DNA of 64,000 nt from Methylobacterium sp. SyP6R (lineage in GTDB: Bacteria; Pseudomonadota; Alphaproteobacteria; Rhizobiales; Beijerinckiaceae). Shown here in pieces: positions 44,149 through 45,857 of this stretch. The DNA lies in assembly GCF_019216885.1 (NCBI RefSeq), contig NZ_JAAQRC020000001.1:5521501-5585500 (forward strand). The letters run 5' to 3'. The notes beneath the pieces were generated by a model. It was not told the DNA's origin. It searched no databases and was given only the letters and a program-made list of their open reading frames with translations. Made by a program: the position numbers and the translations under genes. The stretch's first letter is position 1. Every line of letters begins with the position of its first letter.

Positions 44149-44535
44149 ATGAAAAAGATCCTGCTCTCGGCCGTGACCGTCCTCTCGCTCGCCGGGCTCC
44201 CGTCGACCGGTTACGCCTTCTCGATCGGCAGCGGCAACGGCAACGGCAATGGCAACGTCGGGGTCGGCAACGGCAACGGCAACGGCAACGGCAATACCGG
44301 CGCCCTCAACGGCAACCTCAACGGCAACGGCAACACCGGCTACGGCAACGGCAACAACAACGGCAATGCCAATACCGGTGTCGGCAACGGCAACCTGAAC
44401 GGCAATTTCAACTTCGGGATCGGCAACGGTAACAACAACGGCAATTACAACCTGGGCCTCCTGAACGGCAACGGCAACGGCAACCTCAACTGGGGCAAGT
44501 ATAACGGCAACAACAACGGCAACAACAACCGCTGA
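44149..44535 (+). CDS. Secreted Gly/Asn-repeat protein 1
   Basis: A 128-residue protein with a Sec signal peptide (MKKILLSAVTVLSLAGLPST, cleavage near GYA-FS) and then only repeats. From about residue 37 it holds seven 13-residue units fitting N-x-G-x-x-N-G-N-x-N-G-N-x (for example NTGYGNGNNNGNA, NFGIGNGNNNGNY, NWGKYNGNNNGNN), preceded by a shorter unit. AAGGAGG lies 6 bases before the ATG. Composition is almost only Gly and Asn with one variable, often aromatic or aliphatic, position per unit. Such ladders suggest a beta-solenoid or amyloid-like fibre at the cell surface (inference). The XNXGX pattern resembles the mycobacterial Pentapeptide_2/MPTR repeats. First of three adjacent genes. Confidence 0.85.
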   Translation: MKKILLSAVTVLSLAGLPSTGYAFSIGSGNGNGNGNVGVGNGNGNGNGNTGALNGNLNGNGNTGYGNGNNNGNANTGVGNGNLNGNFNFGIGNGNNNGNYNLGLLNGNGNGNLNWGKYNGNNNGNNNR

Positions 44536-44622
44536 GCGGGTTCGCGCGAGCGCAATCGCCGGAATGAATTTGCGAAATGGACTTGGCGGAGCGGCCTCTG
44601 CCGCTCCGCTCTCTCGATGCTT

Positions 44623-44667
44623 GGTTCCCGGATGCAAGGTTCCTGGACGCAAAGTTCCTGGACTCAA
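44623..44667 (+). repeat. Three 15-bp tandem repeats upstream of GN-repeat gene 2
   Basis: GGTTCCCGGATGCAA, GGTTCCTGGACGCAA and AGTTCCTGGACTCAA follow directly on one another, ending 29 bases before the start codon of the second GN-repeat gene. Confidence 0.88.
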
Positions 44668-44696
44668 GTGGCCCTCGCGCCGCAAGGGAGGCTCGG

Positions 44697-45194
44697 ATGA
44701 GACTATGGCCCTGTCTGTTCGCCGCGGTGCTGTTCGGTGCTGCACACCCCGCCGATGCGCGAAACCTGACGCTGAGCATGTCGGTCTCGACCGGCAACGG
44801 CAACGGCAACGGCAACGGCAATATCGGGATCGGAAACGGCAATTCGAACGGTAATTACAACACCGGGTCCGGTAATGGAAACGGTAACGGCAACGGCAAC
44901 GGCGCACCGCAGACGGGCGGGAATATCGGCGCCTTCAATACCGGAACGGGCAATGTCGGCGCCTTCAATTCGGGGACCGGGAACGTCGGCGCCTTCAACG
45001 GCAACTACAACAGCGGGCCAACGAACGGGAGCGGCAACATCGGCGCATTCAACGGCAATTTCAATACCGGAATGTATAACGGAAACAACAACGTCGGCGC
45101 GTTCAATGGAAACTTGAACGGCGGCAGCTACAACGGCAACGGCAATGTCGGCGCCGTCAACGGCAACCTGAACGGGAACGGCAACCGGCCCTGA
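44697..45194 (+). CDS. Secreted Gly/Asn-repeat protein 2
   Basis: A 165-residue protein with signal peptide (MRLWPCLFAAVLFGAAHPAD, cleavage near DARN) and repeats from about residue 32. After an NGN-rich part, units open N(I/V)GAFN: two short 10-residue ones (NIGAFNTGTG, NVGAFNSGTG) and three of 18 residues (NVGAFNGNYNSGPTNGSG, NIGAFNGNFNTGMYNGNN, NVGAFNGNLNGGSYNGNG). AAGGGAGG lies 5 bases before the ATG at 44697; the longer reading upstream is the 15-bp repeat leader. The GAFN units recall mycobacterial MPTR repeats. Related to the proteins on either side but not a simple copy. Confidence 0.85.
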   Translation: MRLWPCLFAAVLFGAAHPADARNLTLSMSVSTGNGNGNGNGNIGIGNGNSNGNYNTGSGNGNGNGNGNGAPQTGGNIGAFNTGTGNVGAFNSGTGNVGAFNGNYNSGPTNGSGNIGAFNGNFNTGMYNGNNNVGAFNGNLNGGSYNGNGNVGAVNGNLNGNGNRP

Positions 45195-45404
45195 AAGTGG
45201 GCTTCGCGCCTGGCATGGGGCCTGGCACGCGTCGCAGGATGTCCGAGGTTCCGTCTCGATGCAATTTGCACGACGGAGCCGGCCGATCGAGAGCCGTCCC
45301 GGCGGAGACGCTCATTTCCGAGGCGATGTCCTTTCCAAGTCGCATGAAGCACGGCTGTCCCGGCCTTCGAGGCGAGGCGGGACAGCATCCGGAAGGAGAC
45401 GACA

Positions 45405-45857
45405 ATGCGCTTACCTCTGATCGCCCTCGCGCTGTCCGGAATCGCGCTCGCCGGCCCGGCCAGCGCCCAGATGCCCGGCTGGACGCCGCCCGAGGGTTTC
45501 CGGCATGGGGATTTTCACGGCTTCCACGGCGGCTTCCGGCATTGGCATGGGCGGCCGCACCGGTCGGGATTCCGGTCCTTCGATCTCAATTCGGGCGCCG
45601 TCGACGGTCCCGCCGTCGCGCCGGAGCCCCCCGGTCTCGCGGGCGTCTCGCCTCCCGGTCCCGCGGGTGGTTCGCCGCCTGGCCTGGCGGGCGCCGTGCC
45701 GCCCGGCCTCGCGAACGGTTCGGGCAACGGCAACGGCAATGTCGGGAACTTCAACGGCAACGGCAATACCGGCAACAACAACGGCAACGGCAATGTCGGG
45801 AACGGACTCGGAAACGGGTTCTCCACCAACGGGAACGGCAACGGCATCGGACAATGA
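45405..45857 (+). CDS. Secreted Gly/Asn-repeat protein 3, with Pro/Gly linker
   Basis: A 150-residue protein with a signal peptide (MRLPLIALALSGIALAGPAS, cleavage after SAQ), a His/Gly/Arg-rich segment (about 32-60, HGDFHGFHGGFRHWHG), a Pro/Gly repeat (about 70-100, PPGLAGVSPPGPAGG), then a short NGN-rich tail (about 103-150, NVGNFNGNGNTGNNNGNGN). GGAAGGAGA precedes the ATG by 5 bases. The His-rich part could bind metals. It lies 210 bp after gene 2 and probably shares regulation. Confidence 0.8.
   Translation: MRLPLIALALSGIALAGPASAQMPGWTPPEGFRHGDFHGFHGGFRHWHGRPHRSGFRSFDLNSGAVDGPAVAPEPPGLAGVSPPGPAGGSPPGLAGAVPPGLANGSGNGNGNVGNFNGNGNTGNNNGNGNVGNGLGNGFSTNGNGNGIGQ

Follow-up and report, generated by a model that had tools for sequence, protein, structure and literature searches.

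The stretch analysed here (the window, 64,000 nucleotides of Methylobacterium sp. SyP6R, contig NZ_JAAQRC020000001.1) contains, at positions 44149 to 45857, three adjoining plus-strand genes for small Asn/Gly-repeat proteins, which we call N1, N2 and N3 and which correspond to the open reading frames (ORFs) P1, P2 and P3:

44149..44535, plus strand: N1 (P1), 128 residues; signal-peptide-like start, then seven 13-residue units
44697..45194, plus strand: N2 (P2), 165 residues; signal-peptide-like start, NGN array, then NxGAFN units
45405..45857, plus strand: N3 (P3), 150 residues; signal-peptide-like start, variable middle rich in His, Pro and Gly, conserved GNGNGN..NGNGN tail

A first-pass annotation of this DNA had described three neighbouring genes combining signal peptides with Asn/Gly repeats, exact 13-residue units in the first protein, 10- and 18-residue spacing in the second and a His-rich and Pro/Gly stretch joined to an NGN tail in the third, and each of these features was recovered in P1 to P3. 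Hydrophobic N-termini and Shine-Dalgarno-like sequences were found for all three ORFs, which are separated by 161 (P1-P2) and 210 (P2-P3) bases. Residues 36 to 126 of P1 consist of exactly seven contiguous units of the pattern N-x-G-x-x-N-G-N-x-N-G-N-x, each divisible into 5+4+4 residues, and the self-identity of mature P1 at lag 13 is 0.68, compared with a maximum of 0.47 reached by 2000 shuffles at lags 4 to 39. In P2, NxGA(F/V)N occurs at residues 76, 86, 96, 114, 132 and 150 (spacings of 10, 10, 18, 18 and 18), and members of the N2 family share a GAFNGxxNxSxTSGN-like core with NxGAFN units around it. Past residue 23, P1, P2 and P3 have 2, 1 and 10 charged residues, respectively, and N1 and N2 contain 21 and 22 Asn-Gly pairs. 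A crude signal-peptide rule was passed by 51 of 51 N1, 32 of 36 N2 and 24 of 41 N3 proteins. Six-base GGCAAC repeats are present at the DNA level. Directly upstream of P2, a 15-bp tandem repeat of 3.1 copies spans positions 44623 to 44668. A scan of positions 43800 to 45950 revealed no excess of promoter-like (1, shuffles 0.6) or terminator-like (3, shuffles 3.1) sequences, and an Rfam scan of positions 38000 to 48000 gave no match at the gathering score.

The repeat structure is well preserved in relatives. The DNA pattern for NGNxNGN has 15 matches in the 7.5-Mb genome, all inside P1 and P2, with 9 matches for the reversed pattern, which makes this a weak control. A stricter DNA pattern, encoding GNGNGNGN[V/I/M]G, has 24 matches distributed over 10 of 111 Methylobacterium genomes and none when reversed; 23 of these lie in loci of the N1-N2-N3 triad, and the other lies outside them, in an N3-like gene of genome G096. 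N1 itself is present in 10 of the 111 genomes, that of SyP6R included. Across 60 N1 proteins the copy number varies and the unit length is nearly constant, with anchors spaced by exactly 13 residues in 358 of 380 cases and by 26 to 29 in 16 of the remaining 22, so that related strains do not show the random repeat lengths that the first-pass annotation had named as damaging to its proposal. Furthermore, comparison with G064, the nearest relative fetched, gave dN/dS ratios of 0.18, 0.16 and 0.27 for P1, P2 and P3 (MacB permease, 0.045; response regulator, 0.21). These ratios of 0.16 to 0.27 indicate that all three genes are under purifying selection. Against the more distant locus L039, where the repeat register is less sure, mature P1 has a ratio of 0.41 and mature P2 one of 0.24. 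Alignments within Methylobacterium (A1, A2 and A3 for P1, P2 and P3; A3 omits P3 of locus L040) revealed conservation over most of the length of P1 and P2, and chiefly in the tail of P3. The wider alignments A4 (36 N1) and A5 (33 N2) comprise selected members rather than every protein called; the repeats leave the register of alignments and blast matches uncertain, and the N and G positions in the N1 composition table are preset by the search pattern. In the Methylobacterium relatives L042 to L047, the 5' leader of N1 carries a more or less exact GTTGCTC...GAGCAAC-like inverted repeat.

All three classes occur together in 11 of the 12 Methylobacterium loci fetched. A scan for the exact N1 pattern, covering one genome each for 84,980 species, returned 54 stretches of eight kilobases (kb), most of them titled Mesorhizobium and the others Methylobacterium, Labrys, Roseiarcus, Aureimonas, Bradyrhizobium, Kaistia, Devosia, Afipia and Pararhizobium (genera that we take to be members of the Hyphomicrobiales), together with metagenome-assembled genomes (MAGs) of Hyphomicrobiales, Beijerinckiaceae and Xanthobacteraceae, one stretch titled Alphaproteobacteria only and one Proteobacteria only. 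The classes N1, N2 and N3, assigned in this survey, like a fourth class N4, by regular expressions, occur together in 24 of the 54 stretches, a lower bound like all presence counts here, since many stretches cut the cluster and absences there are not firm. Presence is patchy: 32 of 119 Mesorhizobium genomes are positive, as are 8 of the 397 sampled from the order and 2 of the 385 sampled from the class, the genome of SyP6R being counted in both of the latter. The synteny that the first-pass annotation regarded as support for a system is therefore found in Methylobacterium and in other Hyphomicrobiales, and the three neighbouring repeat-protein genes almost certainly constitute a conserved gene system.

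N4 is an NGN protein with an NGN start and a conserved C-terminal domain bearing the motif APGLxxAG[I/V]E.C[L/M]GS (L043:13425-14048 and relatives). It was found in 8 of the 111 Methylobacterium genomes, each of which also has N1, and in neither the genome of SyP6R nor G064. The N4 protein examined from Methylobacterium matched no Pfam family, and that from Labrys gave a sub-threshold match; 102 homologous clusters were recovered by protein search, hypothetical where the source gives a name. In Pararhizobium mangrovi, the N genes adjoin a gene for a 506-residue protein (L155:1411-2931) whose start is followed by an NxGxFN-type repeat.

Searches placed the three proteins in no known family. P1, P2 and P3 matched no Pfam (PF01469 included, as the first-pass annotation had suggested checking) or NCBIfam family at E ≤ 1. 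Against PDB sequences, the N2 profile gave nothing at E ≤ 1 and the N1 profile only pheasant lysozyme (E 0.11 and 0.53), which we discarded as chance. P2 has 61 homologous clusters, hypothetical or uncharacterized wherever the source names them. The protein search also returned weak relatives outside the taxa named above, for instance one from a Rhodopila MAG and one from Geosiphon. The related-locus search for P1 yielded 588 pattern stretches with none confirmed by tblastn, which we attribute to low-complexity filtering. A plasmid DNA search produced only partial matches of low identity, in 22 records, and in none of them was 80% of the query covered; the literature search found no paper on N1 to N3 among the matches listed.

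Divergent from N1, on the minus strand, lie a regulator gene and, beyond it, genes for an exporter and a second small regulator:

43089..43886, minus strand: FixJ/NarL-type response regulator (Response_reg and GerE; PF00072, PF00196), divergent from N1
41492..42925, minus strand: MacA-type periplasmic adaptor (HlyD family; PF16576/PF13437; PDB MacA match)
40755..41480, minus strand: MacB-type ATPase, a separate polypeptide (PF00005)
39538..40755, minus strand: MacB-type permease (MacB_PCD and FtsX; PF12704, PF02687; PDB MacB match)
39169..39480, minus strand: small LuxR/GerE helix-turn-helix protein; relatives have a match in 7 of their 11 triad loci

Adaptor, permease and ATPase domains are all present, as expected of a MacAB-type tripartite exporter. 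The first-pass annotation had noted this exporter and the FixJ-type regulator with no direct link to the repeat genes; comparison with relatives supplies that link, as both lie in the conserved neighbourhood. In relatives, tblastn detected MacA and/or MacB beside every one of the 11 triads, in varying orientations; the OprB porin that neighbours the cluster in the window was found in only one of the 12 Methylobacterium loci fetched (L036). With at most 16 MacB candidates scored per genome, a close match to the MacB permease (E ≤ 1e-100, with 77-98% identity in the relatives) was found in 9 of the 10 Methylobacterium genomes with N1, that of SyP6R counted, and in none of the 101 others; in G027, the tenth, a contig ends in a MacB fragment of 80% identity. 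Fisher's test gives 2e-12 for this co-occurrence, an overstated value because related genomes are treated as independent. At a looser cut-off in 11 genomes, other MacB matches were 36-41% identical (G398, G215, G305, G001), and no second MacB match reached E 1e-20 in G064 or in the genome of SyP6R.

Furthermore, MacA, 40-45% identical to that of the window, adjoins the N genes on the same strand in 11 of the 50 non-Methylobacterium stretches. The order N1-N2-N3-MacA occurs in six of them (L104, L117, L124, L138, L144 and L153), followed by MacB in all except L104, which ends at MacA. N1-N2-MacA with no N3 called occurs in L110, L141 and L152, while L146 and L154, which start inside the cluster, have MacA beside N genes. 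The Methylobacterium locus L047 reads N1-N2-N3-MacA-MacB, with a LuxR gene after. Overall, 15 of the 54 stretches (4 Methylobacterium, 11 others) contain an accepted MacAB match; a MacB-ATPase match in L105 was dropped from this count at 28% identity. These observations of gene order and co-occurrence indicate that the MacAB-type exporter belongs to the conserved neighbourhood of the triad.

The regulator at 43089 to 43886 combines a receiver with a LuxR/GerE helix-turn-helix domain, as in FixJ/NarL-type proteins. Its 5' end contains a 15-bp tandem repeat of 4.3 copies (43685-43749) that encodes repeated in-frame MATGL/TATGL codons, so its start codon is uncertain; a further 15-bp tandem repeat, of 6.9 copies with 90% matches, lies at the far end of the window (63334-63436). 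A FixJ-type regulator stands beside the triad in 9 of the 11 loci of relatives. Of the 54 stretches, 39 have regulator matches, which are tblastn matches at E ≤ 1e-6 with common domains, and 32 have kinase matches. A PAS-HisKA kinase adjoins the regulator in L038 and L042 to L045 (domains read on the L043 protein), with no close match at the window locus. Four neighbourhoods of FixJ homologues (L062 to L065) contained no NGN ORF and no MacAB match; in L062 (G046:C23), the regulator is 62% identical, and NGN genes and MacAB matches are absent within the 19 kb fetched.

Taken together, we propose, with a probability of about 0.5, that this locus is a regulated secretion cluster in which secreted or surface Asn/Gly-repeat material is moved by MacAB. 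N1 to N3 would enter the periplasm through Sec and would then be carried across the outer membrane by MacAB with a postulated TolC-like channel, as is reported for STII in E. coli. The regular array of N1 and the fixed-core array of N2 could form small beta-coils that pile up into a surface or matrix material in which N3 has an accessory part, and the FixJ and LuxR regulators would turn production on in response to some signal. In favour of this proposal, the AlphaFold model of P1 has about two short strands per 13 residues. Export, assembly and fold are proposals; the three proteins probably make up an undescribed kind of surface or matrix material. More tentatively, and with odds well short of even, the cluster may represent a dedicated two-step route in which Asn/Gly-repeat proteins capable of self-assembly pass first through Sec and then through a MacAB-type pump, with the 13-residue coil as building block, largely confined to Hyphomicrobiales and constituting an extra polymer-building route beside the curli-like ones of Gram-negative bacteria. 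A bolder step still starts from the Asn-Gly dipeptide, which deamidates readily: the nearly uncharged material might gain negative charge with age through the Asn-Gly pairs of N1 and N2.

Several observations weigh against this proposal. N3 fails the signal-peptide rule in 17 of 41 cases. AlphaFold returned a weak model for P1 (pLDDT 59.7) and no usable model for P2 (pLDDT 37.9), and Foldseek found no significant match; the fibre, amyloid or beta-solenoid favoured by the first-pass annotation is a candidate form of these proteins. The FixJ-type regulator family is unspecific, 56 of 111 genomes having a match at E ≤ 1e-40; being so common, it is linked to the triad by position. A lone second N1 copy in G064 (L037, the exception among the 12 loci) lies away from any triad or MacAB. 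Finally, no MacAB match was accepted in 39 of the 54 stretches, in some because they are cut; these include stretches of Mesorhizobium, Labrys, Kaistia, Aureimonas and Devosia, and in Mesorhizobium G215 and Kaistia G398 the only MacB genes are 40-41% identical and on other contigs than the N genes.

These MacAB-less stretches bear differently on two alternatives that leave the repeat proteins outside the pump. MacAB could export a small molecule, lipid or lipopeptide, with N1 to N3 as periplasmic or outer-membrane accessories (binding, buffering or sensing) rather than cargo. MacAB-type pumps are reported, in the excerpt of PMC8277102, to move macrolides, glycolipids, lipopeptides and protoporphyrin, gene linkage alone cannot tell cargo from partner, and a biosynthetic partner could sit among the remaining shared neighbour clusters, which are mainly from Mesorhizobium stretches and without annotation. 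Against it, N genes of Mesorhizobium and Labrys stretches have no MacAB nearby, and the neighbour clusters most widely shared across genera are the regulators and MacAB; we consider this alternative rather unlikely. The same triads lacking MacAB within 8 kb (Mesorhizobium, Labrys, Kaistia and others) favour the converse possibility that N1 to N3 are secreted or surface material and MacAB serves, for example, envelope maintenance or by-product efflux. This we regard as less likely still, given MacA following N1-N2-N3 on the same strand in six stretches and a permease whose presence agrees with that of N1 in 9 of 10 genomes versus 0 of 101 others.

Two further alternatives concern the repeat proteins themselves. 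The 13-residue coils could fold into a short beta-solenoid that stays monomeric and serves to bind ice, water, metal or polysaccharide, which we find improbable; VIA-align listed no antifreeze protein among 50 matches, a result that excludes nothing. That the genes are meaningless low-complexity sequence maintained by replication slippage, as their GGCAAC repeats might suggest, is hardly credible in view of their dN/dS ratios, the constancy of the 13-residue unit, the conservation of the P2 core across families and the linkage to MacAB.

With the secretion cluster proposed here, three low-complexity genes that lacked annotation become part of a defined, testable system of cargo candidates, exporter and regulators, present in genera that live with plants or in soil (Methylobacterium, Bradyrhizobium, Mesorhizobium). 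Should MacAB export the repeat proteins, the known cargo range of an efflux-type pump would be widened, and the small N proteins would offer a tractable non-mycobacterial model for Asn/Gly-repeat folds.

Among known systems, curli are encoded as a regulator (CsgD), repeat subunits (CsgA/CsgB) and an exporter (CsgG). The present locus is similar in that genes for small Sec-type repeat proteins stand together with one for a LuxR-type regulator and with others dedicated to export, but its exporter is MacAB-type and its repeat unit has 13 residues. The Curlin profile matched neither the window proteins (E ≤ 1) nor the 33 N2 and 36 N1 members (E ≤ 0.1), and of the 10 genomes checked for CsgG only G064 gave a match, far from its triad, with none in the genome of SyP6R, compared with matches in 4 of 14 control genomes. 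Accordingly, we rejected the curli apparatus as the exporter.

The NxGxx pentads of N2 recall PPE_MPTR proteins and Pentapeptide_2, the mycobacterial resemblance to which the first-pass annotation had pointed. This likeness held for part of the family: PF01469 was matched by 6 of 33 N2 members at E ≤ 0.1 (best 1.5e-5) and is carried by 6 of 61 P2 homologues in a precomputed table, but it was matched by none of the 36 N1 members, by no window protein at E ≤ 1 and not by mature P2 at E ≤ 0.1. No PE or PPE N-terminal domain was matched in window proteins at E ≤ 1. Unlike PPE_MPTR proteins, N1 to N3 have a signal-peptide-like start and N1 a 5+4+4 unit; an unbroken five-residue period is absent, P1 having a period of 13 and P2 spacings of 10 and 18. 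In the excerpt of PMC4858275, the pentapeptide-2 pattern is given as XNXGX, 95% of the pentapeptide-2 sequences in Pfam as mycobacterial and the structure as unknown.

A third related system is MacAB-TolC, which, according to the excerpt of PMC8277102, secretes the Sec-exported STII peptide of E. coli from the periplasm. A MacA adaptor, a MacB_PCD/FtsX permease and an ATPase are all present here; however, ATPase and permease are separate genes, the window permease aligning to residues 275 to 670 of a 671-residue PDB MacB chain, and the exporter is genetically linked to repeat proteins.
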